Of a DNA stretch of 64,000 nucleotides, positions 17,390-56,883 are shown piece by piece. The stretch lies in assembly GCA_013115145.1 (NCBI GenBank), contig JAAPAO010000054.1, forward strand, positions 1-64,000, written 5' to 3'. The notes under the pieces were generated by a model, which saw only the letters and a program-made list of their open reading frames with translations, was not told the origin of the DNA and did not search any database. Each line of letters begins with the position of its first letter. Within the stretch, counting starts at the first letter, position 1. This DNA comes from Perkinsus chesapeaki. Taxonomy: Eukaryota; Perkinsozoa; Perkinsida; Perkinsidae. The translations under genes and the position numbers were made by a program.

Positions 17390-18574
17390 TCATTCATATC
17401 GGTCCCCTCGAGCCCATTTACGGAGCCAAGGGTTAACTTCGCTATCCTTTCCTTGGGCGTAGAGAGCTGCTCCTTCTGCACACTTATAAAAGAGAGGCAA
17501 ACCGTTACCGTTGAAACCAGCGCAGACGACTACACCGTGTCGCTCAGTCAGGGGCCCAACTAATGGCAGACCGTCCGAAGTGAAGCAAAGATATTCCGAC
17601 CACATGTCGACTTCGCTGACATCGGACGCTCTTTCGCTAGAATGATCCCAAAGATACTTTTCGAGGTTGCTTGCACCTTCTTCCAAGCTCGAGGCGCCTT
17701 CACCACCGAGTATGATTCGCTCAGGAACCGGTCTCGACATATAAAGCGTATCGTTAACAGCAGCAAGCGTACATTCTCTGAGCCTTGTATCATCATCGCT
17801 GCACGGTACCGCAATAAGGTGGCTCATTTTAGTGGTAAAGTGGTTCCTGAGCTCGGGAAGAAGCTCCCCCGTGAAGGCGTTGGTGCAGACCAATACTGCC
17901 TTATTTGCACCCATTTTTCTGCCACCTTCAACCGTCACTGAAGGGGAAACAGTTGCAATGTGTCTGACAGCAGTATCGAAGCCAAAGGCCACGTTTCCGG
18001 TGTCGGCAGCTCTCTTGGCTATTGCATATGTCAGGTCGACTGGATTGACACTGAATGTGTTCGGTTGCCTTATTCCACCAAATGCATCTTCATCGGGCAC
18101 GAGGCCAGCTTCCAGCCAGCCTTGGTCTTCACAGATGAGCTCAACTCCCTGGAGAGAGGCTGTGTCGTCAGCGAAGAGCTCTCGCTGAGCTTCACTCTCT
18201 TCATTGGTGCTAGCAAGCTCAATACTGCCGTTCTTATTTCGTCTGGTAAGATCAGAAATCGCATTCGCTCCGCTCATTTCAAACTGCAGTTTATCGATTC
18301 CACCTTCATCGGAATCAGCATGACTGCTAGGCCACACATGACCACCATTGCGTCCAGATGCGCGCCAAGCTGGACAAGCGCCAGCCTCAAGCACGAGCAC
18401 AGTGCCCCCAGCACATCCGAGATGGTAGGCTGCCGCTACCCCCGTCAAACCAGCACCAATAACAATGTAATCATACAGGCGATCTTCGGCTGAGGGTAGA
18501 TCAACCTTTGTGGTGCTCTTCTGCCAATAAGACCGTCCACCCGGAAGGTCAAGTAGAGATCTATGCGTCGACAT
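17390..18574 (-). CDS. FAD-dependent oxidoreductase (DAO family)
   Basis: A 394-residue protein in a single exon. Residues 35-45 (DYIVIGAGLTG) hold the GxGxxG dinucleotide-binding motif (40-45) of a Rossmann fold, followed by the acidic end of beta-2 (VLVLEAG). The motif ASGRNGGHV about 30 residues later is typical of the D-amino-acid oxidase/PuuB-like FAD family. The C-terminal FAD-binding block DGLPLVGPL with CAGFNGNGLP is also present. The length fits the family (about 370-450). The N-terminal SYWQKS resembles the substrate-side start of gamma-glutamylputrescine oxidase-like members, but the substrate cannot be inferred. There is no signal peptide, so it is probably cytosolic. It is divergent to SAR1, with 104 bp between the start codons. 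The lack of introns contrasts with its neighbours. Confidence 0.85.
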   Translation of the reverse strand: MSTHRSLLDLPGGRSYWQKSTTKVDLPSAEDRLYDYIVIGAGLTGVAAAYHLGCAGGTVLVLEAGACPAWRASGRNGGHVWPSSHADSDEGGIDKLQFEMSGANAISDLTRRNKNGSIELASTNEESEAQRELFADDTASLQGVELICEDQGWLEAGLVPDEDAFGGIRQPNTFSVNPVDLTYAIAKRAADTGNVAFGFDTAVRHIATVSPSVTVEGGRKMGANKAVLVCTNAFTGELLPELRNHFTTKMSHLIAVPCSDDDTRLRECTLAAVNDTLYMSRPVPERIILGGEGASSLEEGASNLEKYLWDHSSERASDVSEVDMWSEYLCFTSDGLPLVGPLTERHGVVVCAGFNGNGLPLFYKCAEGAALYAQGKDSEVNPWLRKWARGDRYE

Positions 18575-18678
18575 AATCGATTAGCTGGGCGCGCGCTTTT
18601 TACAGATGCGACTACGTGCTGCGCAGAGACTAGCTTTACTACCTTATATTCAAATATAATTCATTCAGGTCTTTCATA
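18575..18678. promoter_or_regulatory. Short bidirectional promoter region
   Basis: Only 104 bp separate the start codons of the divergent oxidoreductase and SAR1 genes. The interval is AT-rich near SAR1 and includes TTCATTCAG at about 18,661-18,669, nine bases before the SAR1 ATG, which would suit a 5' trans-splice acceptor if this lineage uses a spliced leader. No core promoter element is evident. Confidence 0.4.
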
Positions 18679-19278
18679 ATGTTTCTCGTTGATTGGTTCT
18701 GGGATACACTTAACTGGCTCGGGCTCACTCACAAGAACGCCAAAATCCTTTTCTTGGGACTCGACAATGCCGGCAAGACGACGCTGTTGCACATGCTTAA
18801 GGACGACAAGGTTGCCACCCACGTCCCTACGCTTCATCCCTGTTCTGAGGAGCTCTTGATCGGCAAAATCAGATTCAGAACCTTCGATTTGGGCGGTCAT
18901 GAAACTGCCAGAAGAATCTGGAAGGACTATTATGCGACCGTTGATGGAATCATTTTTTTGGTCGATGCCGCTGACCGTACAAGATTCCCCGAGGCTGCCG
19001 AGGAGCTCAGACACCTGATGGAGAGCCCCGAGCTGCAGAACGTCCCCATTGTGGTGCTTGGCAACAAGATCGATGTTCGGACGGCTGCCAGCGAAGAGGA
19101 GCTTAGACAGGCACTTGGGCTTTACTCTCACACTACCTTCGGCAAGGATGTCAACAAACAGATGGTGAAGAACGCTCAGGAGGCCGGCATTAGACCAGTC
19201 GAGGTGTTTATGTGCTCCGTTGTTAAGAGAATGGGTTATGCTGAAGGTTTCAGATGGCTCTCTGAGTTCTTGGAGTAA
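18679..19278 (+). CDS. SAR1: SAR1 small GTPase (COPII coat)
   Basis: A 199-residue intronless gene. SAR1 starts COPII coat assembly at ER exit sites by GTP-driven insertion of its N-terminal amphipathic helix and recruitment of Sec23/24. All signature motifs are visible: hydrophobic N-terminus ([16 protein letters not shown]), G1 GLDNAGKTT (27-35), switch-I threonine in VPTLHP (Thr51), G3 DLGGHE (70-75) with the catalytic histidine (74), G4 NKID (129-132), and a C-terminal G5-like CSVV followed by the family ending FRWLSEFLE. The length matches the family (about 190-200). There is no myristoylation glycine at position 2, which separates it from ARF. Key residues are intact and the gene looks functional. 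Confidence 0.97.
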
Positions 19279-40516: not shown

Positions 40517-41133
40517 TACGGTGGAGAAAATAGGAGCTAGAGAGAAAGCTTATTAACCGGAAAAAAGTGCAATTTTTATGCGTTAATTTCGGCGAGGCAA
40601 TGTAGATTCCAGACCGGTTGTCAACTTGTGCTTAGAAAAAGGATTTCACACGGCAATTTCAATTCAACCTACACACCACTACACCTAGAAGTAGAATGCG
40701 ATTTTGGGCGAGCGCTGAATTAACAACGCATTTTCGAGATAGGCGTCTCGGCGGAAATTGGGGGAAAGAGGAGGTCCTCGGCAATGCACTTATAACGAAC
40801 ACGATAAGGATTCGGAAAAGTTGACGATGATCGAAACATCTGCGCAAAGTCGGATAATCGCTGCGTGGTCGCTTGAGTCAGTGTAAGTAGTTGGCGCATT
40901 TTATCATGTCCGAATCAGTGCCTCGGCCAGGAGGTACCAATGCTAATGATCAATCAGCAACTACGGTAAGATCATGATAAAATACACAGCGATGGAGGGG
41001 AAAGCGGAAAAAATATGGGTGCTTGCTTAGAAAAAAACTGACGGCACAGATATGCCAACAGCGACCTTGAAAGTATCTTTGGTGAGACGACTTCCAGTGA
41101 AAAGTCGACTCTCTCAAGGAGGATATTCGTCGT
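40517..41133. other. Intergenic between divergent genes
   Basis: This lies between the ATG of the TerD-like gene (minus) and the presumed start of the channel gene (plus), so both promoters should be here. I see no further exon with support; minus-strand frames at 40659-40847 and 40950-41150 lack motifs. Confidence 0.4.
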
Positions 41134-44100
41134 GTGAATATCTCGGCCATTCTCCCGTTTAATTTACCTTTGATTTCTCCTATAGTGATGATTGCTAATG
41201 CACTTCACTCGTTAACTCGGGGGTGTAACGTTGATTCCTTTCGGCGAAAACCGAATAAAGTTAAACCCGAAAAATGCTATTGGTGTTTGTTGAAGGTAAA
41301 CATATCCACTTCGAGCGGTGGTGCACAGCAACCTCAAACAATCGTGATAGTGAGCGGGATGCCTGGAGTCAGTACATCACAAGTGGCGCCTCTTAATGTG
41401 TCACCACAGGTAAGCCTATCATCCAGGGAATTTAAATGATAAGGGGGGGGGGGGTTACAATATGCAATAGGGCTCTTTAGCATGGTAAAAGACGGTTGAA
41501 ACTGCCGATCCTGTCGTGGGTCTGAAAATTGGTAGATAAATTCTGCATACTGCGGCTGCAGCATTTGAAGGGTATATCTAATACTTGTGATATGTCATGT
41601 TGATCATAAATTACAATTAACAAACAAAGGAATTCATTGTGGTATCAGCTACTCTAGGACCGAGGTGCTTTCCTAAAATGGAGATATATATTCTTCTATA
41701 AAATATCCTCCAAAGGCAAACCGAACAACAATTATCTTTAATGGCTTCATCATCTTCTTTATCATTTCATCCGATATATAATTACTGTGATCGGTCGACG
41801 TTGTTGTTGTTGTTGCTGTAAAGATATATTCTCCCTTTCAGTCCTTAGCGGTTGCTCCAGGCAATGAGACCAAGGAAGTGCTAAAAGCCGATAAGGAAGC
41901 TGCGAAGCGACACTTAATGATGTAAGATATCACACCTCACTTCGTTCAGCGTTTTCGGACTTTATTATTCTATGCGGGTTTATAACGTGGGTTGAAAATA
42001 GCATTTAAATGTTAAATAGGAAGGAATGGAAAATATTTTTTAATGTCGTATATTAATAGTAACTCTTCATGATTCATAATCTACGAACCTTCAATGTGTT
42101 CTCTATGCCGATTTAACTTCCCTCGAGAAACTAAACTAAAGAGGGGAAAGCAGCTGATCACTATAAGGGTGTGTGTGGTTTGTGGAGCAAAGATATTTTT
42201 GAGCTCAACTTGATGGCACCTGTAATTCCTTCAGCACTTCCTGTACTACTAGAGACCGCGAGACTGATACGTATAAGTGGCGTTCGATCTGGAAGACCTC
42301 CAGAGCTGAACTGGTGAGTGATAATGTCCTCCGCATAAGTAACCGACTTTTTCCAGGGGGAGTTCGGCGTCGGCATTCAGCTATACTTTGACTTCCTCCT
42401 CTACCTCGGCATCGTTCTGCTGGTAAGTCACCTGGGATCTGGTCTCTGTACCGTCAAGAGTCGCTGCTACAGTAGTGGATATAAATGTGATGATTGTGGT
42501 TATGGCATTGGTCTGTAGAACAATTCGAGACGTAGTTTTTTATTGTATGCAATTCAGGACAGAGAATTTAAGTCTTAAATTTTAAGACTTTCTTAATTGG
42601 TAATTTCGATAGTGAAGCGGAAGTTTCGTCCTACCATTGACTTGTGCAGTTTCCGTAGGCCTGTGATTCAGGTAATGGCATGCATGGCGGCTCCTTTGCT
42701 CCATAAGGCAGCTCAAGGAGATCTAGCCGGAGTTGGTGCCAACATTATGGTCAAGTCTTCGATAGGAAATATTGGTGAATGTGGAAGATTCGGAGAGATC
42801 TGCACAGATGTTACCTACGTAAGCTCTCCCCCCCCTCCGCCCGCATCACGATCATGTCATCACTCAGATTCCGTATCGTAAACTCAATCCTGGTTCGGAC
42901 GTTATGTTAAGGGAACGCACTCCTCTCTATGGTGGTTTGGACTCTGGTAAGTGTCGTGAATTTCGTGGCGCGCGGTCAAGTTGTTATTAGGTGCAATTGT
43001 GGTGCTGCTTTTATTTGCTTTTGTATTCTACTCGGTGCATATAAAAAGAACTGTCAGAGTAAGCCGGAAATTTAGGAAAAATTCTTGGGAAAATTTTTTC
43101 AGCAACAAGACGAGGACAATGTTACTCCCAGCGACTTTGCGATTCACGTGATGGACTTGCCGAAGCGTGTTGGCAGCACACCACAGGAGCATGCTCTTTA
43201 TGCCGAAAAATTGAAGGAACATTTCGAAAAGTGAGCAGCAGACCGAACATAACTACAGTCTTTGTTGAAAAAATAACTTAGCGGGATTCCTTGGCGACTC
43301 TGTGGGCATTTTCCTACACTTCTTGTGAATGGCGACGCCTGATAAGGTTGGAATACTTGAACTGTTCCAGTTTAAAGCATATGCGATGCTCACTAGAGCA
43401 GTAGCACATGGGACGAGCCGTCATCTTAAGGTAGTTGAATTTTCAATAGCACATTCAGTTTTGAGAGCTTTTACTTCCACTTCACTAATTTTTATTTTTA
43501 CTCGGATTTTTAAGCTTTTCAACGTGAATACAATAAGCTGTTGATAAATACATTATACGGTGATGAGCGGATTTATATGGTTAATGTGGTCGTTCGTGAC
43601 TAGAGAGGAGCCTTAATAAGGTGCCTTATTATTTCTCTTCTATTGTCACAGTATGCTGCAGGATCTTATCTTGTAGGTTGGTCAAGGATATGCCTGATGA
43701 CGGCGTCGAGAGAGATCCCGATCAGCCGGTCGTCTGCGAGGTCGCTCTCGCCAGGGACTACGATGGAGCTATTCGCAATTTCCTGGGACAAGTAGGGTTA
43801 GAAAAACGGCTAAGTTGATTGGCCTTCCATGAACAGGGGAAACTATACATTGAAAAACGTGAATTGGAAGCACAAGCGGCTGAGCTGTATTCGACAGGGA
43901 AAGCGGTAAGTCGTCTTTGACTGTAATTCATTGACGTATCGACATGCGTAATTTGGGCCGAATCTTAAGGCAGCAGCCAGCGACACTTGTGGCACTTTTC
44001 ATACTCGATAAGTCTGTTCGTGGATGGTCGTGATAAAATCGCCGTCTCTGAGTTGAAGGTCCTCCAGGCTTGTTTGAGGCTCCTCCATGAGCTTGACATT

Positions 44101-47100
44101 TCACCTGTCTCCTATTTGACTCGCTCTTGCTGTCAGTTTACTAGAGGCAAGTCTGCGTGAACTTTTAGAACAACTATAATTCAATGTATTAGCTATAGTT
44201 CATGGATTAATCATTATTAATGGTTCCTCTCAATCTGATTCGGAGAGCTCATTATGTTAGACATGTCGCGTTTCTTGTCATGTGAAATCTGAGCTATGAC
44301 CTATTACGGATTAGTTCCGTAATGAAAGGCTTGCGGCGGGGTTTGGATTTCAGTGGTATGCAGCAGTTCTGTCCATGTGCAGAAAAAAGCAAGGAAACTC
44401 GAGCAGAAAATTGCCGCTATCGACGCCAAGTTGGAAAAAATGAGTAACAATGTTAAGTCACAGAAGGACAAGATGGATGTTGAGCGAGACGTAGGAGGTC
44501 GACGTAAGATACGCTATACGAAGCTGTTCTTCTTTTCAGGTCTGCCAGGCTCATGTCATCTTCAACGAGGAGGCGTATAAAAAGTTCATCTTACATCGAT
44601 ATCGCTTCTCTGGCTCTTGGCTTTGGCGCTTGGTAAGTTGGTGCGCCGATTGTTTTGTTTCGGAGAAAATCTTAAAACTTTTAAATCTTAAAAAAGATTT
44701 CCTCCGAGAAAGTGACAATTGAGGAGATCGATGAAGCTTTTTCTTTCTTTTACAGCAGGCTTGCATTCCTTCTTCCCCTAAATTTCGCGGAACTTTCTCG
44801 GATATCTTCGCATTCACGATGTATGTTTGAGAGATCCCTCCAGCCTGCTGAAAATCGAGGAGTTGTCGAACTCTATGTTATCCACATAATGTAGAGATTC
44901 ACGTTGGAGCGTCCGAAGGTATATTGCATTGGTTATTGGTTTTTCAGTGCCAAGCTCGCGTATTGCGCTTTGAAGGTCAAGCCTTGAACGTGAAGCAAGC
45001 CTACGAGCCCAGCAATATATACTGTGAAAATCTTGATTTTAACCAACGCAGTGCGAGCAGGAGGAGAACTTTCACATGCTGTATAAGCTTCTTCTTACTT
45101 GTCATATCATGCATTCTACTCGTTATAGCCAAGAGTAAGTTGAGGCGCGGTCCGCGGAATTAGGCGGCCTAATTACAATTCAATCCTCGAACCTCCCTCC
45201 CAATCGCCGAACTATACAGGCGCCCAATGCGATAGTTTGCAGAAATTCTTACCTACAATGTCATTGGCCGTGTGCGGTCTCGATACGGTTTGCGGTTTTC
45301 CGAAGGAGTGACTCTACCGTCTGTGCCATAGACTCCATGGAAATAGTTATAGTACTCTTCGAGGAGCACCATTAGTAAAAACTGGCATTGGTGGCGTGAT
45401 GAGCTGTGTATTGCTGTGTATTGGACAAGTTTGACTACCCTTTTTCTAGGGTTATATCAACAAGATAATTTGCACGACGATTGCTTCTCGCACCTTTTTG
45501 TCTCATCGTCGGATTTCGAGCACGATTCTTCTTCAGTCGCTGGTATACCTAGAGACGCTGCTCCAGTCGGAAACAAAGATATCTGGATCATCGGAAATTA
45601 CAGTCGTCCAGAAGGTGATGGATGCTTTGAGATATGTGACGTACAGATGTACTCTGATGAGAATTGTCAAGATAATTTATTTGGCACAATTGGTGTTGAA
45701 AAGGTAAGAATTCCGGTGTGAAATAGACACTTCGACGAGATACATTACCGGACGATGAGATGTTGCCGATCGGCTCCCCTTGTAGAAATAATCCATTTCT
45801 TGGCCTTCAGTATTAACGATTCTAGCGTGAACTATTCACCTTTTCTAACAAACGCGAACTACTGTAATGTATCGGTTGTTCCAACTCACCCAGGACTCCC
45901 TCCCTTGCACCCATTATTTGACGGCCGTAATTGTTTGTGTACACATTTTTTTCAGGTTTTCGACTCCACCGGTGATATCAAGGTTATGAACCCCATGTCA
46001 CATGAAGCGGTTGATGGTGTTGGTTTCAACAGTCTAACTAACGCTGTTAATAACTTATCCATCTGCAGCAGTACAACCTGGTCTCCTCGGACATGTGAGA
46101 TTTTCTGCATTCTTATCACGTATTCACGTCCTCGTTAGGTGTTGAACCAGATGAACTGGATACCCTTAGGAGGCGTCGGTTATCGCCGGTCCGTGAACTG
46201 TCAGGGAGCTTCTTGGAGATGAAACCCTTAACAGGATCTTTCAGGCAACCGAGAGTAAGGGGCAATTACGTGTTCTTGAAAAGTCCTGCATGACGCGAAC
46301 ATGGTATCCTTCAAAGTGGTCAATAGACTTTTAATTCTACGCAATGTCTTTGAGATTAAGCCTGAAATAGGCTCTAGTACGCGTTGAGGACGTCACTTTT
46401 TTGTGGGGCGAGAAAGTGTCGAAACTTAGTTGCCAGGCACCGGTCAAAAACCCCATTGAGTTACTCGACACCGTCAGCGTCGTCTCGGTGGTTAGCAGGT
46501 AAAAAAAAGTGCGAAAATTCTACCGAATTCAACAAAAATTTCAGACCGCCTAGGCCGCAGCGGCGTCGCTGGGGAAAAGTAAAATCCCGACGCAGACGCA
46601 CTCAAGAGACCTATGAGGAATACGCCACCGCACCGGACCCGCTCGAGGGAAAACACATGACACTTCGAATGAGCGGCCACATCCCGGATCAGGGTGCAAT
46701 TCGCAATGCTATCAAGCGCGGATTTGGACCGTCTGTCCATATCGAAACCAAACACCACGCGGGTACCCCTTTGAATGACGACGACTTTACACTTGAGGAG
46801 ACACCACAGGAACCCGCTGCCGAAACCGTTTGCTCGGAGAAGCAGCTTGCCAACGAAATTACCTTGCTCGATGCCGGCACGGCAACTGACTTTGCAAGCG
46901 CTGAATTCGTTGACGTTGAGCTTACGGTCTGCGGCAGTATAGAAGCCATCACATGTGCCGAAAGAAAACTAACTATTGCGGACGAGACAATTATGGCCTC
47001 CACTGTACTGTACGGTGGCATCGCTACTTTCAATGTCTCGTACGAAGTGCTGGACGGGTGTCCAGTCTCTCATGATGATACCGCAGGCACTCCCTATGGG

Positions 47101-50100
47101 CCTGATCCTTACCCCGATTCTAAGCATGTGAATTTCAGCATTCGAGGATCATTGGATCAGTCTGCGACCCGTGATGCGTTATACCAAACGTTTGGTTCAC
47201 ACGTTCACCTCGAAGCCCATTATGTGGTTGGAAATGAGCCTGCTAGCTTGTGGATGAGCGAGACTGAGAGTCTGTCTGGAGAAACCGGAGATGACCTAGC
47301 TAACTTTTCCTGTGACGTCAAATTGCTGGCCACGGCGCTGACGTCGCTGAAAAGTGCTCCCGCTGGCGACTTCACGTTTGATCAAGCTGACATCCTCTTG
47401 ACTGCATGTGGGCCCGAGGTCGTGATAAGCTGTATCGAGCAACAAGTGGAGGCTGCTAAGAGCGAACTTGAATTACAGAGCAGTGTATCGTATGCCGGAA
47501 TCGAGAACATTTCTATCGACTCTACCCCTACAGACGGGTGTCCTGGAGAGGGGCTCAATGGTCCTCAACACCCGCATGTGGAAGATCCTAACTTCCCGTC
47601 GAAGCACGTCAATTTCAGCATTCGAGGATCATTGGATCAGTCTGCGATCCGTGATGCGTTATACCAAACGCTTGGTTCACACGTTCACCTCGAAGCCCAT
47701 TATGTGGTTGGAAATGAGCCTGCTAGCTTGTGGATGAGCGAGACTGAGAGTCTGTCTGGAGAAACCGGAGATGACCTAGCTAACTTTTCCTGTGACGTCA
47801 AATTGCTGGCCACGGCGCTGACGTCGCTGAAAAGTGCTCCCGCTGGTGACTTCACGTTTGATCAAGCTGACATCCTCTTGACTGCATGTGGGCCCGAGGT
47901 CGTGATAAGCTGTATCGAGCAACAAGTGGAGGCTGCTAAGAGCGAACTTGAATTACAGAGCAGTGTATCGTATGCCGGGATCGAAAGCATCTCCTTGGAG
48001 TCTACCTCGCTTGATGGATGTCCTGGTGATATAGGCCATTTCTATAATGGTACCGAACCTCCATATGATCCCTACTTCCACTCGAAGCATTTGAATTTCA
48101 GCATCACTGGACCACTAGACCAGTTTGCAATTTACGATGCCCTTCATAAAACGTTCGGTCCCCAAGTTCGTCTTGAAGCTAAATACATGGCCGGGTACGA
48201 GCCCAGCAGTCTGCCGATGACCCAACTTGAGGAGGGTGCCGGTGGAGTCGGCGAGGACCCCCCTCCTTTCGTATGTGACGCCGAATTGCTTGCCAGCACA
48301 CTTACATTGCTGAAAAGCGCCCCACTCAGTGACTTCACATTCGACCCCGCCAATGTTGTTTTCACAGTATGTGGTCCAAACGACATCGTAGATTGCATAG
48401 AGCAACAAGTGAAGACTGCTAGTAGCACACTATTGAGTCAAACTGATATATCTTATGCTGGGATCGAGAGCCTTGCTCTCGAATCCGCAGCCATAGACGG
48501 TTGCCCAGGAGACTTCCACAATGGCCCTGACTATCCGAACATGGACATGTTCCGGAAACATGTCGAGTTCGAGCTCCGGGGATACATGGATCAAGCCTCC
48601 GTGAAGCATGCTTTCGAACAAGGTCTAGGTCCATCAGTTTGGCTCGACGCGTTCCCAATCGAGGGCCACATGCTCGACTTGCCTCCTGAGGAGTTCAACT
48701 CCACAATGCCTATGGATGAGGGCGGTTACTCTGCTCTAATATCAAATTCCACAACCTGCGCACCTAATTCTTTGGTTAAATCCCTAGAGGTGGTTAATCG
48801 TGGGACAGAAGAAGATTTTAAGTCTGGTAACGAAATGCTACATATGAGGGTAACCGCCTGTGCCACAGAGGAGGAAGTTGGCTGTTTGCTTGAGAAGCTA
48901 CAGCTCGCCTCCGACTTAGTGGCCAATTCGGGAGATTCGCTCTATGCTGGGATAAGTATGATGCACGTTAATGACACTGTATATGAAGGATGCCCGAATA
49001 ATCCTCACGGCGAGGAACCTTATGACCCGTACGAATGGCCTGAGGGTGTTCAGAGTCAGAAGTTTGTTGTGAAGGGGAATATAAATATGAAAGATGAGGC
49101 AATCGGGAACGCTTTCGACACTGCAATGGGGCATTTCGCCGGCTTCCAGGAAGACTACTCCTCACGTGCGTACGGCAACCGAAGGCTTTCTAAGATCGGC
49201 AGGCGTCTTCAGAGCGCTTCTGGAGCATTCGAGTGCAATGAGACCGCTTTGGAGAAGGAACTCATGGGCTTACAGCTCATCGCCGCGACTGACGCGGCAA
49301 TCCAATGGCCGTACGTCGAGCTCCAGATAGTGGCATGCTCTATGGAAAGTGAGTGTGTGACAAAACAGCTGCAGAATGCTGCGACCATGCTGGCAAAATC
49401 ATCATCGGCGGGTAATACATATGCTGGGTTGTCGGCCATTGATGTCGATGGTGTGATTACTAATGGATGCCCACATATATATGACCCATATCCAGGTGGT
49501 GAATATCCCTATTACGAGAATATGAGCAGTATCAGACTTACCGTTGTCGGCTCGTGGGACGAGGAAACCGTTAAGAATTTGGTGGAAAACGCCTTCGGTT
49601 ATGACATTTTCATGGATGCCATTCTTTTGCCTGCCGATGACAAGTCGAATGATCCAATCCCATACGCCGCATCTGAAGAGGCTGTTGGTGATACGCAAAA
49701 TCCAGAGTGTGAAGAGGATACACTTGTCAAAATGATGGAGAGCCTTCCCGTGGGAGCTCCTGGCACTGGTGGACGCAAGAAGGCGGAGATAACTGCATGT
49801 GGTGAGAAAATGAAGATCATATGCATAGGCAGAATGCTAGAAAAAGCGCGAGAATACTCGTCGAGCTTATCGAGCGAATTTCCTGGTGGGATTGAGCTCA
49901 TGGCAGCTCTGGGGCCTGTTGAAGATGGGTGCCCTCTAGATTTTGATGACCAAGGGCCTTACGTGCCGCCAGCTCTGGTCGGGCAAAAGCTTACCAGCCT
50001 CTCTTGGGTTCTGAGGGGATATCATGATATCGATGGCCTAGGTGATATGTTCCACATGGTAACTGGTGAAAACGTCATCTCCCGAGCCGATCCTTTCTAT

Positions 50101-53100
50101 CCTCCGGCTGATGGGAGCAGCATTGCCGAGGCAGCGGCTTCGAGCAGCAGTTCCCAACCTATCGATACTTCTGTTTGCGCGATCGATGCTATGGTACGCG
50201 CTACCGAAGTATTATCGCCAAAGACCGAAGCGGAGGCTAAGAACCAAAATCAAGCTTACTCGGAGCATATCGTCACGGCATGCAGCCTTCCTGAGCAAAC
50301 TCGCTGCATCTATGCGCAAATCCAGCGAGTATTCAATATGACCAAACAACTCTCGAATGGAGCTTTGATTGGCGGCTTGTCTGGTGGCTTTATACTAGCT
50401 CCGGGAATACAAGACGGTTGTCCCCTGATCGATATGCCTGCCAACGACAACGCCACGGACTCGGGTTCCCAAGAACGAGAGGGCGCGCAAGTTCTCGTTT
50501 TGACTGGATATTACCTCGAGGAAGAAATGTCGGCCATTTTCCAAACCGCTCTTGGAGGTCTGAGGATGCAGGTGGAAGGCGGCAGCGTTGACGATACTGA
50601 TATGAATGTCCCGGTTGCAGGTGAAATAGACTCGGGGAATACAATTTCGGAAGGGGAACTTCCTCGAAGGACGCAACTGACTAGCTGCGAGTTCTCTACC
50701 CTCGCGAAGGCGCTGCGAACACTTCCTATTGTGAAGGAGGAAGTCATTGCTAGCCAGCGCAAGTACAGAGAAACCAGAGTAGTCATCTGCGGTAGTGTGG
50801 AGCAACTCGCGTGCCTAAAAAAGAAAGTTGCTGCTGCGCAAAGTCTGATGAATGGACTCGATGGTGCGCTCTATGGAGGGCTAGTTGAGCTTACCTTTGA
50901 TGGTGACGGACTTCCGGTCTGCCCAATGGATGGGCCCATCGAGTATCAGCCCACAGCTACGTTATCATCCAAGAGTATCGAATTCACCATTGATGGTTAT
51001 TTGCAAGTCCAAGGGATCGCCAAGAATCTACGAGAAGCATTCGGTAGTTCAGTGCAAGACGTGTTCCTCGTCGACGATGGTGGCGATGATGGTACATCTA
51101 CAATGGAACCCGGTGAAGTACCCCAACCAACAGTCACAACCGCAATGACAGACATCACGGGAGAATTCGCTAAAACGACGGCCCCTACTGTAGGGACAGA
51201 AGACATGGGGGAATTTACCAAAACGACGGCCCCTACTGTAGGGACAGAAGACATGGGGGAATTCACCAAAACGACGGCCACTACTGTAGGGACAGAAGAC
51301 ATGGGGGAATTCACCAAAACGACGGCCCCTACTGTAGGGACAGAAGACATGGGGGAATTCACCAAAACGACGGCCCCTACTGTAGGGACAGAAGACATGG
51401 GGGAATTCACCAAAACGACGGCCCCTACTGTAGGGACAGAAGTCACGGGGGAAATTACCAAAACGACGGCCCCTACTGTAGGGACAGAAGACATGGGGGA
51501 ATTCACCAAAACAACGGCCCCTACTGTAGGGACAGAAGACATGGGGGAATTCACCAAAACGACGGCCCCTACTGAAGGGACAGAAGACCTGGGGGAATTC
51601 ACTGAGACGACATATCCTACTGGAGGGACACAAGGCACAGGAGAAGTCTTTACGACTACAGGGCCTAGTGCAACCTTTGAGACAACAATACCTTCGAGCA
51701 CTACCCCTCCTGTGAGAATTCTTTCCGACCAACGTTGGTTGCAAGACACAGCAACAACATATGAATGCTCGGAGAACGCCTTGGCTTCTGCTATAAGCGA
51801 TCTGAAGCGGCAAGCTGAGAGCACGATGACTCTGAAGCGTGTTGAGCTTAAGCTACGGGCCTGTGCTAAGCCAGCAAGGGTGGAATGCATAAAGAAGCAG
51901 ATTGAAGCTGCTTCCAAGCTCCTCTCTTCATCTGGCAGCGAGTTGTATGGTGGAATAAAATCCATACGAACCGACGGAGTTGTCAGGGAGGGTTGTGATA
52001 CGTCAGACCGAATTGACACTGGTGGCGTAGGGGAAGTGTCGATAGCGGCGACGAACTGTTTGAGCACACAGACAGCTTGCTCTAACGATCCCGATCGCCG
52101 CTGTTATGACTCGTCGAAAAGATGCGACCGCACTTGGTTCTGCCCTGGCGGAGATGATGAGATGAGCTGCACCTATCAGTGCTTAGCAAGCGAAGTTCGC
52201 TGCCCGGCAACTGGTCTATGTATTCCGAAGGATCTTCATAAAGGAGGATGTCAAGAATGTGCTGATGAAGCTTACGCTGAAGAGGAGACGTGCCTCTTCC
52301 TTAAGCAAGAGAGAGAATCTTTGCTGGATCTGAAATCGTGTAACGCTGCCTTGGTCAGCGAGATTATCTTTGCTCGTTACGGAGCGGGTTGCACTTTCGA
52401 TGTCGACCCTTGCTGCGTCATGGACAAGGTAGCACTTGACGAGACCGCAACTGACGCTCTAAAGTGCGATGGATATACCTACAGACCAAGTCTCATTGCA
52501 GCCGGGACTACTCTTCTCGTATGGGGCCGAGCATATTGTGAGAACTTCCAGAGAATGCAGAGTGCGACTTCATGCACGGTCGATGACATCGACGTCCTGA
52601 GATACTCTTCGATGAGTTGTGAAACTTTCCTTCTGAGTGGCTCGCTTGCCTGCGAATGCTTCGCTGACCTCGGTGGAATCCTGCAGGAGGACCGCGATAT
52701 CCTGGAAAGCTGCGACACATTCCGGGCTGATATGAAGCTACCTGGAATCACAGATGCTGAAGTCCGATCGGCTATCAGGCGAAATCTCGGAACAACTGAG
52801 CACCGGATGGCCTGGGACTCGGTGAAAGCGAAGTGTGATGCCCAAGGTGGTCTGCAAAAGCTCGCAGCTACACAAAGTCTTATAAGCGACGAAGAGAAGA
52901 ATCCAGTGAAAAAGTTGAAGTCAAAGCTGACCCTCGGTGGTGACTTGTCGAGCATCAAGGATGATCCTGCGGCATATTCGGCGTTCAAGGAGAGCTTCAA
53001 GGCCACTTTACTGGATATCATCGGAAGCGACAAGCTGACTAAGGATTCCATGATAGTGAATGGTATTGTCATGGCGGAATCTAATACGGTAAGTTGGAAT

Positions 53101-56100
53101 GAGGGGTCTTCCACAAGGCACGGTCTCTTGAATATGTCTAGTCAAACTTTCAATGGTACTATCAAATCACACTTTACATCCAGGTAACCACTACAACAGC
53201 TGCACCACAGGGCGTTACTACTACTACTCAAGCACCACCGAGAAGACTCCAGACGAGCACCAGTAGCGGTGTCAGCTTCGAGGTAATTACACCCTCCTGA
53301 GAATGAAATGCACAACCCTCTCGCTCAGCTCACGGTCGATAGTGGTTCAAGTTCTGGCACACTAGCTGATCGAACGGCCGGGGCAGCGACGGCGGCTACA
53401 AGTGTGGCCGGTGCGCTTACAAGCCTGAATTCGGACCCATCAAGCCAGTCATCGTTATTGACCTCTCTCCAAGCTTCAGTGCCTAACATGCCTCCTATCA
53501 CATTCCTGGGTCTAGCTGAACCACAGGTGACATTCTATCACAGGATGATGACATGATAGGGTTGACCACAGGTTCGAGACGCGATTGAACAGCTGTGTTT
53601 GTCTCCGAAGTTCAAGTGTCCTGTTACGGGGACTTGTATAGAGGAGCGATTTGTCTGCAACCAAATCCCTGAATGCGAGGTTATCGAGCCTGGTGAAACT
53701 GTGGCTGCGGATGAGAGAGGGTACGCAATTACCATGGAGACTGAAGCTAAGTCGTCCGGTCGTTCAGGTGCACATTCACAACTCCTGCTCCGGGGGCACA
53801 GTGTAAAGATACCCAGTTCCAGTGCGGATCAGGCGAGTGTATTGAGGATGTGTTCTACTGCGACGAGTTCAACGATTGTGCTGATGCATCTGACGAAACT
53901 CACCCGGAATGCGTGGCACAGTTGGAAGCTCGCAGAGAGATGGAAGCGGGTAAGCCGTAAGGCATATCCAAAGGCACATTACGTCTTGTAGCCACGGCAT
54001 CCCAAGCCTCCGCGGTCCCCGTGACCCTGGTGAAGGACTGGTTCGGTGTCATGTTCGCGACACCTGTTACTGTTAAATGCATCAAGTTCATGCAGCCTAT
54101 CGATAAGGTAAAAAGATGACGATGATAATTTTTGTGGTTAAGTGGTGTGGTCAGATGGTAGCTGATATTAAAATGTTTGCCTGTGACGAGAGCGAAGTCT
54201 TCCGTGATGGCGTTGGTGTTGTCCTGAGAAAGCCGGAAACAAGTTGCAAATCCATGAAGGTTGATCAACTTTAATTCCAGAGTTTCATCCTCTTAGCGCA
54301 GGTCATCACCTTGGTCGATACGGAGACCAATCTGCTCCAGCACAGTGTGACTGTGGATACTACCACAACTACTACCACCACGACACCAACGACAGCCTCT
54401 GGCCAGTCACTCGCGTACAGCGCAGCTTCGGCGGCAAGAGCATGCTCGTCGGGCAACTGTGATGTGGTAGGCCGTCTTAATGCTCTGGTGTGCTCTGTAG
54501 CTTAACGATATTAGGTCATGATGAATACAAATTACGAATGCTATGACGCTACAGGAGAGATTGTAGACTCGGACGACATCGGCAGTGGCGTCTGTAAGGT
54601 GCCACGACCGGGAGATGCTTCGACGAACAAGGTTGAGGACGACGACCGTTGTGATATTTCGGTATGTCTGAATGGTCAATTTTAATGAAGATATTGAACG
54701 CTTCGCAGCTGCCCATCTCACTGGCCCGAGTGAAGAAGATTCGGGCTGCTAACGTGGACGACAGCGATCTGCTGGAGGATGACACTTACAAGTGTTTCTG
54801 TTATCAGCAGTTGCAGTTCAACATCGCCAACGGCAATACAAGGTCGTTCCGAGATTGCTCGGGGGCTCCAGCTTTTACCACCTTCACAGATACTTCTTTC
54901 CACCATATAGCGGCGAAGCCCAGAAGCTATGCGAGCCTTATCTTTTACAGAAGGTGTGCTGCCCCTCATAAGATTCATCATAGGACGAGTTCATTTCAGC
55001 TATTCGAATTCTTCATGGCAATTGTGGCCGTGTTGTCTGTGAGTATCTTGAATTGGCTCCTGAAGGCCATCATATACTTTTTGGTGGACATGGAGAAGCA
55101 TACATCAGTGAGTTGACGGAAAGCAACAGGGCTGGCCAATCCCAGTGTTCGGGTTCATTGCTGGCTTAAAGACACGAATTTTTAGTAAATGTTGAAGCTG
55201 TTATTCTCGATATAAAAGTGACATGAAATGAAAAACAAGTGAGGTTGGTCGCCTCCCGTCTTAAAGCACGCATGCTCTCGGGCTGTTCACCCTTCAAATG
55301 AGACGGGGGAGCCGCGACACTAAGTGCTTCGTTGTCTGATACCTTCCAAGGTATATGCTGTAGCAGGCTGAAGATTATGTACCCATTTTTGTGTACATGT
55401 CGTGTCGCACAGGTGACGACCAAAGAGATGTCTCTGATGAAGAAACTCTTTCTGGCACAGTGGATCAATACCGGCTTAATCATTCTGTTTGTGAATGCCC
55501 AACTCCATGGAATGACAACAGATATACCAGTGGTGAGTATCTTGTGATTCGGTTTTATCACGTTCACCATGTATTTTAACATTCAGGTCGGCACCACACT
55601 CAGAATCGGTGACGGTGAATACGACGATTTCACATCTACTTGGTACAAGGCTGTCGGCATCGGTCTCAGTATTACGATTGCCGTTCAAGTAGGGATACGA
55701 CCAACCGGCGGACTACTATCAGTCTGGATTCTTAGATCGCCTCGGCTGCCTTGCCTCCAATTGTCGCCGGCTTCCTCAAGCTTGTGATGATGCCTTTCAC
55801 TGGAAAGAAGAAGAAAACACAAGTGTGTCATTTGGTTACTATCTTGCATAATAATCATGCATTTGCAGGATGCTATGAATCAAGTTTACAAGCTACCAGA
55901 TTTCAACTTGGCTCTACGTCTCGCTCAGACGATGAATGTCCTCTTCTGCACCATAATGTAAATGCCCGTGGTGCACTATTCTGAGATATCTTCTATTTTC
56001 AGGTATTCGTCGAGCATGCCGTTGCTTCTGATCATCGGTGCTGTTTACTGCTTCGTCGCGTACTGGGCTGATAAGATCTGTCTTCTACGGTAGGCCCCAG

Positions 56101-56883
56101 TTGGCCTTCATTGCGTCCGAGTTCGTTCGCAGATTCTCGGCAAGGCCACCCGCTTTCACCCAGGAAACCGTTATGGGCGCCATCAAGCTGTTCCCTCTGG
56201 CAGCACTGATGCATTGTCTCCTCGCTTTCTGGATGTACGCTCGTGCAGTTTTCAGTTCCGTGCAGACATTCAATATTGCTGATTTCAGGTTGAGTAACCA
56301 GACTGTGTTCCCAAGTGATTTCTTTTCGGATATGACAGAAGCACGGTAAGCTTGATGAAGCATCTTTTCGCTTTCGGAAGGTAACACTATCAGTTACGTG
56401 GAGAGGTATATGAGTGGAGCCAATGCGAAGCGATACGAACAGATTATGTTTAAAGGTGTGCCCACTGGTGACTTTGAGTCTTTTAAATGGTATGTTGGAG
56501 CTCGTATTGAGGACGGCTTCCGAAAGGCCACCATTGGCGAGTTTATCGTTATGATGCTCATTGTAGCCTACTTTGGCATTTACCTCTTCTACAATATATT
56601 CGGTACGCACATTATGGCATGCTTAAGGGCATGCTGGCAATGCTGTCACACCAAGAAGGGTAAGCAGATGAGTACCATAACGAGCGAGACCTACACTGAT
56701 TCGGTAAATGAGATGATTCAATCTGGTATGATTCACTCATATGAATTGAAGAACAATCATCGCTATGACCTGGCTTACACAGCTATATCTGAAATCGAGC
56801 AGAAGAGCCGAAATAGCAAAGTCGGGCTGCAATCACCTCATCCACAGCAAGTGGTTGTGGTAGTTCAGCAGCAAAAAGAATAA
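41134..56883 (+). CDS. OSCA/TMEM63-like channel with giant repeat ectodomain
   Basis: One gene of more than 25 exons; the start is uncertain (41134-41300). In order: SGGAQQPQTIVIVSG; membrane segments GVGIQLYFDFLLYLGIVLL (42,364) and IVVLLLFAFVFYSV (42,994); a cytosolic RNA-fold-like block TPSDFAIHVMDLPKRVG, then VCEVALARDYDGA, a coiled stretch KKARKLEQKIAAIDAKLEKM, and VIFNEEAYKKF; then AYEPSNIYCENLDF, the family's A-x-EPS-x-I-x-x-ENL signature, and membrane segment CCISFFLLVISCILLVIA (45,080). An ectodomain of well over 2,000 residues follows (45,430-54,950). Membrane segments resume: FFMAIVAVLSVSILNWLLKA, EKHTS, SLMKKLFLAQWINTGLIILF, FNLALRLAQTMNVLF, YSSSMPLLLIIGAVYCFVAY, and the end FIVMMLIVAYFGIYLF with HSYELKNNHRYDLAY. 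The exon 46543-53089 is a huge internal exon. Superfamily assignment rests on remembered motifs. Confidence 0.7.
47131..47980 (+). repeat. Recent 480-bp internal duplication (modules 2 and 3)
   Basis: About 370 nt at 47131-47500 recur at 47611-47980 with only about five substitutions, at an offset of exactly 480 nt (160 codons). The other modules are far more diverged, so this copy arose recently or was homogenised by conversion. Confidence 0.9.
51163..51642 (+). repeat. In-frame 48-nt minisatellite, ten units
   Basis: Ten 16-residue units of the type EFTKTTAPTVGTEDMG. The central units are nearly identical at DNA level; the last two have drifted (TEGTEDLG, TYPTGGTQGTG). The unit length is a multiple of three, so copy-number change leaves the frame intact. 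The Thr-rich units are likely O-glycosylation substrates forming an extended stalk (inference). Confidence 0.95.
52055..52170 (+). other. LDL-receptor class A-like module 1 (ectodomain)
   Basis: Reads TACSNDPDRRCYDSSKRCD and then WFCPGGDDEMSC: the spacing of cysteines and the final Asp-Asp-Glu before the last Cys fit an LDLa repeat with its calcium-binding acidic end. It lies between module 10 and the membrane-proximal helical region. Confidence 0.65.
53798..53920 (+). other. LDL-receptor class A module 2 (ectodomain)
   Basis: CKDTQFQCGSGECIEDVFYC followed by DEFNDCADASDETHPEC matches the LDLa pattern closely: six cysteines, the F-x-C-x-x-G-x-C-I core and the D-C-x-D-x-S-D-E calcium cage. 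It is encoded in an exon separate from module 1. Confidence 0.85.

Follow-up and report, generated by a model that had tools for sequence, protein, structure and literature searches.

A Perkinsus chesapeaki gene for a predicted ten-helix protein of the OSCA/TMEM63–TMEM16 superfamily with a very large loop between TM3 and TM4

The window, that is, the whole stretch of DNA analyzed, comprises 64,000 nucleotides of Perkinsus chesapeaki. Its forward strand carries a predicted gene whose product would be a ten-helix membrane protein of the OSCA/TMEM63–TMEM16 superfamily. Elsewhere in the window, a frame at 17393–18580 (reverse strand) matches FAD-dependent oxidoreductase (DAO; 137.5 bits), and a frame at 18634–19275 (forward strand) matches an Arf-family GTPase (201.5 bits). 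The gene consists of the following features, where P0006 and P0007 are two full-length metagenome relatives:

40906–56883, + strand: whole gene, 38 exons, 3,702 aa (public counterpart FOL47_008427, 3,636 aa)
42235–43058, + strand: N-terminal membrane part, exons 4–8 (hydropathy; P0006/P0007 alignment)
43103–45070, + strand: cytosolic linker (IL2), exons 9–14, ending in AYEPSNIYCENLDF (alignment, motif)
45071–45127, + strand: TM3, aa 444–462, missing from the public gene model (hydropathy, alignment of the relatives)
45450–46498, + strand: TM3-side loop end, exons 15–18, motif CFEICDVQMYSDENC, weakly resembling both P0006 and P0007
46545–53088, + strand: giant exon 19, 6,544 bp, with the modules, stalk and Cys-rich region (stop-free frame, gene model)
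46648–50967, + strand: modules 1–9, 156–165 aa each, with 4 invariant cysteines
50968–51996, + strand: module 10, split by the stalk (repeat alignment)
51159–51634, + strand: Thr/Pro stalk, a 48-bp repeat in 9.9 copies with 93% matches (repeat finding)
51997–53088, + strand: Cys-rich region, LDLa-like stretches below the cut-off
53572–53949, + strand: LDLa (PF00057), exons 22–23, best stretch in exon 23 and a second, by eye, in exon 22
53992–54842, + strand: TM4-side loop end, exons 24–28, DDTYKCFCYQ near its end (gene model, alignment of the relatives)
54890–56883, + strand: TM4–TM10 and cytosolic tail, exons 29–38 (RSN1_7TM and Anoctamin above cut-off)

The N-terminal membrane and cytosolic exons, the 6,544-bp exon, and the C-terminal membrane exons form one open reading frame with compatible phases, as a sequence-only reading of this DNA had proposed; that reading started the gene at 41134, and the start moves to 40906 in the 38-exon model. 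All 37 introns are GT–AG, and 25 of them are 42–54 nt long. The stop-free frame spans 2,269 aa, versus a longest frame of 135–234 aa per shuffle in 20 mononucleotide shuffles of the window (three frames, one strand). Joined at the public splice sites, the window DNA yields a protein identical to FOL47_008427 across all 3,636 residues, hence, the one-protein annotation is already public. A full-length protein search with the first model, in which 2,026 candidates were scored, listed one protein, this same FOL47_008427 (P0005); public databases describe it as a hypothetical protein, and its UniRef name starts with "CSC1/OSCA1-like 7TM region doma". P. marinus PMAR015591 (P0002) backs the splice sites between exons 30 and 38, and P. 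olseni FOZ62_021809 (P0001), those from exon 33 onward. One gene with one frame is thus established at the level of a gene model, matched by the public annotation.

That two or three separate genes have been joined in error is very improbable. PMAR015591, annotated as just 283 aa of the C-terminal part, would fit separate genes; however, the junctions are uniformly GT–AG and in phase, the public model is a single protein, and relatives carry both membrane halves in one protein. Moreover, the middle part shows by hydropathy no clear signal sequence or membrane helix (maximum 1.47), which is unlikely for LDLa modules. The PMAR015591 annotation starts at a methionine in TM4; the N-terminal half and any ectodomain of the P. 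marinus protein may have been assigned to separate models or left unannotated.

The 38-exon and public models differ at a single place, where our junction is 45134/45450 and the public one, 45023/45537. The public junction drops 66 residues, FTCCISFFLLVISCILLVI among them. Hydropathy peaks are seen at aa 125–143 (TM1) and 208–226 (TM2), and the 19-residue windows of TM1–TM3 score 2.25–2.91, the upper value, the highest found in the protein, falling within the dropped residues. As a hydrophobic stretch occupies the TM3 place in both P0006 and P0007, directly after an EP..[DN] ... EN[LM] motif, TM3 was kept in our model. The internal donor and acceptor of FOL47_008427 (45023–45537), which remove TM3, are probably an annotation error, misleading for topology predictions. 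The form lacking TM3 is, admittedly, the deposited one (P0005), and if TM3 were absent, the modules would not lie in the outer loop of the topology proposed here. That it is the true form is the least probable reading we consider, given that the skipped residues are open, in phase, and contain the top hydrophobic window, and that a helix directly follows the same EP ... ENL/ENM motif in both full-length relatives.

Alignment with the two full-length relatives places the loop between the predicted helices TM3 and TM4, in agreement with the earlier expectation of a very large loop after the first helix past the cytosolic linker. The loop is 2,804 residues long and contains 92 cysteines as well as 17 N-glycosylation sequons; it runs from about 170 residues on the TM3 side through modules 1–10 with the stalk, the Cys-rich region, and LDLa to about 220 residues on the TM4 side. 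Hydropathy reveals no clear membrane helix in it, the best 19-residue window being 1.47 and cysteine-bearing. Due to the LDLa match, the cysteines, the sequons, the lack of a clear loop helix, and the cytosolic linker preceding TM3, the loop is predicted to face the cell exterior. The same loop is 264 aa long in P0006 and 243 aa in P0007, and this points to a later acquisition of the giant ectodomain. The question of orthologues and of when the ectodomain appeared is answered in part, by these two relatives. The loop ends are only weakly similar to those of P0006 and P0007, with DDTYKCFCYQ corresponding to DATYSCFCLQ in P0006. An F5/8C discoidin domain was considered for the loop ends; no Pfam family matched any of three loop pieces at E ≤ 10, in a search whose filters drop most weak matches.

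The ten modules (aa 690–2472, window 46648–51996), the Thr/Pro stalk, and the LDLa modules had all been anticipated, and repeat alignment, repeat finding, and profile scores bear them out. Modules 1–9 share eight invariant columns, four of them cysteine. Module 2, with nine modules as the alignment, is predicted, with fair confidence, to adopt a ferredoxin-like beta-alpha-beta ... beta-alpha-beta fold (pLDDT 82.8, pTM 0.81); structure searches returned no close solved relative of this fold, the ferredoxin-like arrangement being a common one. Modules 2 and 3 (window 47119–48081) differ by one base across 307 (ungapped positions 73–379 from the module start), which makes a recent duplication or conversion probable. 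The stalk comprises nine TTA[PT]T[VE]GTE units; as a 48-bp coding repeat, it likely varies in length, and the repeat is a possible length marker among isolates. Exons 20–28 score 44.0 bits against LDLa overall, in two matched stretches, and an overlapping second piece, 52.3 bits (cut-off 24.1); the end of the giant exon, at 9.8 bits, is below this cut-off.

Membership of the OSCA/TMEM63–TMEM16 superfamily is established by Pfam matches. The C-terminal piece (first exon draft) scores 39.2 bits against RSN1_7TM (PF02714; cut-off 28.7), and P. marinus P0002, 38.6 bits. Anoctamin (PF04547; cut-off 28) is matched by the window protein (32.6 bits) and P0002 (29.9 bits), and falls below the cut-off in P0003 (22.7 bits) and P0006 (15.7 bits). 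PHM7_cyt (PF14703; cut-off 27) is above the cut-off in P0006 (29.0 bits), below it in P0007 (19.5 bits), and without a match at E ≤ 1 in the window protein, whose N-terminal half has no Pfam match above cut-off. The profile check envisaged for the membrane part thus yields the OSCA-family RSN1_7TM and Anoctamin over cut-off; the TMC profile (PF07810) does not appear among the matches at E ≤ 1. Structure comparison of P0006 is compatible with the superfamily assignment: its predicted structure (pLDDT 40.6) gives Foldseek matches of the TMEM16/OSCA kind, although no Foldseek match reaches E ≤ 0.001 (best E 0.016) and TMC-1 chains are found at ranks 16 and 20.

The assignment to the OSCA/TMEM63 type made in the sequence-only reading stands for the superfamily and fails for OSCA/TMEM63 proper, which is the wrong class, since both TM0 and the TM6 acid are absent. 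No TM0 was found, the best 19-residue hydropathy window starting in residues 1–95 being 1.16. In a low-identity alignment, the TM6 acid column (E531 of OSCA1.2) holds Glu in all three OSCAs of the genome, and Thr in the window protein, P0002, P0003, and P0006, or Val in P0007; eight columns further on, P0002 carries an Asp. Acidic residues of TM7–TM8 form the calcium site of TMEM16. Compared with L026, an anoctamin fragment of the same genome, EYLE of TM7, with two of the calcium acids, lies opposite a gap, and VEFRLDA of TM8 is aligned to VAYWADK, with one Asp retained and one Glu lost. SYELKNNHRY, previously given as an OSCA/TMEM63 motif, belongs instead to the protein's own clade: it is seen in five of six members tested (the sixth, P0002, stops before it), and was not found in the three OSCAs and the anoctamin fragment of the same genome.

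Identity of the C-terminal query is 71% with P. olseni P0001 (71% of the query covered), 78% with P. marinus P0002 (66% covered), and 42% with a metagenome relative (93% covered). We searched the 35.4-Mb assembly, possibly incomplete, for further copies, scoring the best candidates only. Among these, no second copy of the giant exon, the membrane part, a single module, or the Cys-rich region was found. The other matches were, for the giant exon, part of its own sequence in antisense (E 8.7e-4); for the membrane part, one true OSCA (E 0.018, 26% identity); and for the Cys-rich region, one stretch with stops (E 0.66). The single module has seven places, all inside the giant exon. The three OSCA genes (L001, L002, and L003 on contigs C676, C347, and C383) carry RSN1_7TM within stop-free frames of 780–848 aa, apparently with few or no introns around it, versus 38 exons for the window gene.

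Our leading reading, held tentatively and at somewhat less than even confidence, is that this single-gene, ten-helix superfamily protein with its outer TM3–TM4 loop acts as a self-tethered sensor, in which a pull on the loop would move pore helices. For OSCA1.2, the structural report takes TM3–TM7 as pore-lining and the TM2–TM3 linker as cytosolic (PMC6235563); carried over by homology, TM3 and TM4 would line the pore here as well, and the chain would leave one pore helix (TM3) and return to another (TM4). If the homologous helices are indeed pore-lining, any force on the chain would be passed straight to TM3 and TM4. Together with the Thr/Pro stalk, the modules may form an extensible tether that attaches to a ligand, to host tissue, or to the wall of the parasite; under load, the tether would strain TM3/TM4 and open an ion or lipid path. 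A bolder version, which we regard as unlikely, is a gating spring spliced into the pore: ten cysteine-locked modules and a length-variable stalk would run from TM3 to TM4, pulling or unfolding would open the path, and, in a separate OSCA–TMEM16 clade, an alveolate parasite would have made a tension channel into a receptor for touch or contact.

Several observations weigh against the self-tethered sensor: TM0 and the OSCA TM6 acid are missing, and only some of the TMEM16 calcium acids remain; the P0006 model has low pLDDT and a best Foldseek E-value of just 0.016; the N-terminal half lacks a Pfam match above cut-off; the loop ends resemble those of the relatives only weakly; and the public model without TM3 would alter the topology. 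Without the TM6 acid, the protein may instead be an anchor that does not conduct; its superfamily also allows for a scramblase.

As an anchor, the protein would serve in surface adhesion or attachment to the wall, its ten-helix part not conducting and merely holding the ectodomain in the membrane; we consider this doubtful, if less so than the spring. Thr/Pro stalks, LDLa, and tandem modules are common among adhesins; the absent TM6 acid points the same way. However, relatives that lack the giant loop are also missing the acid, meaning that it was not lost along with the ectodomain; in addition, the membrane part is conserved in both Perkinsus relatives and the metagenome relative, and one helix would be enough for anchoring. 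A lipid scramblase of the TMEM16/TMEM63 type, with an ectodomain that regulates it or brings in a partner, shares its superfamily with the TMEM16 scramblases and has a precedent in TMEM63B, described in PMC13332465 as a mechanosensitive lipid scramblase; the partial retention of the TMEM16 calcium acids speaks against it, and we rate it as slightly less probable even than the spring.

A relative whose two predicted pore helices are joined by some 2,800 residues would offer a natural experiment for asking if the fold can also be opened by an outside pull; the authors of the OSCA1.2 study seek the tension sensor in the bilayer-contacting parts (PMC6235563). The protein would also be a candidate contact sensor for a marine parasite lineage, here a single-celled clam parasite, and would represent a clear case of an enormous gain within one loop of a multi-helix protein. 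In the parts of the literature searched, we found no published account of FOL47_008427 or of an OSCA/TMEM63-type protein with such a loop.

Compared with known systems, the window protein resembles OSCA/TMEM63 proteins (OSCA1.2, OSCA3.1, TMEM63B) in the RSN1_7TM region and, by alignment and the P0006 fold match, in helix order, and TMEM63B in a cytosolic TM2–TM3 linker finishing in an EP/DP ... N-I-Y-x-E motif; it differs from OSCA/TMEM63 in lacking TM0 and the TM6 acid. OSCA1.2 showed no structured extracellular domain apart from short linkers, which its authors attribute to flexibility (PMC6235563), in contrast to the 2,804 aa predicted here. The TMEM16 proteins/anoctamins share the Anoctamin profile above cut-off, the absence of TM0, and the P0006 fold matches, whereas the window protein has a large TM2–TM3 linker and, relative to L026, only part of the calcium-site acids. 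FOL47_008427 is the same gene, with 66 residues including TM3 skipped in the public model. P0006 and P0007 share the membrane plan, TM3, and the motifs QxxFPSD[FW] and SYxxKxNxxYxxAxxA[IL], and differ in the short TM3–TM4 loop (264 and 243 aa), with no LDLa match at E ≤ 0.1. Finally, Chlamydomonas PKD2 is described, in PMC10846610, as a channel attached to a long extracellular structure, the mastigonemes; the joining of a channel to such a structure is the likeness, while the tether there is a separate polymer (MST1) and in the window protein would be part of the same chain.
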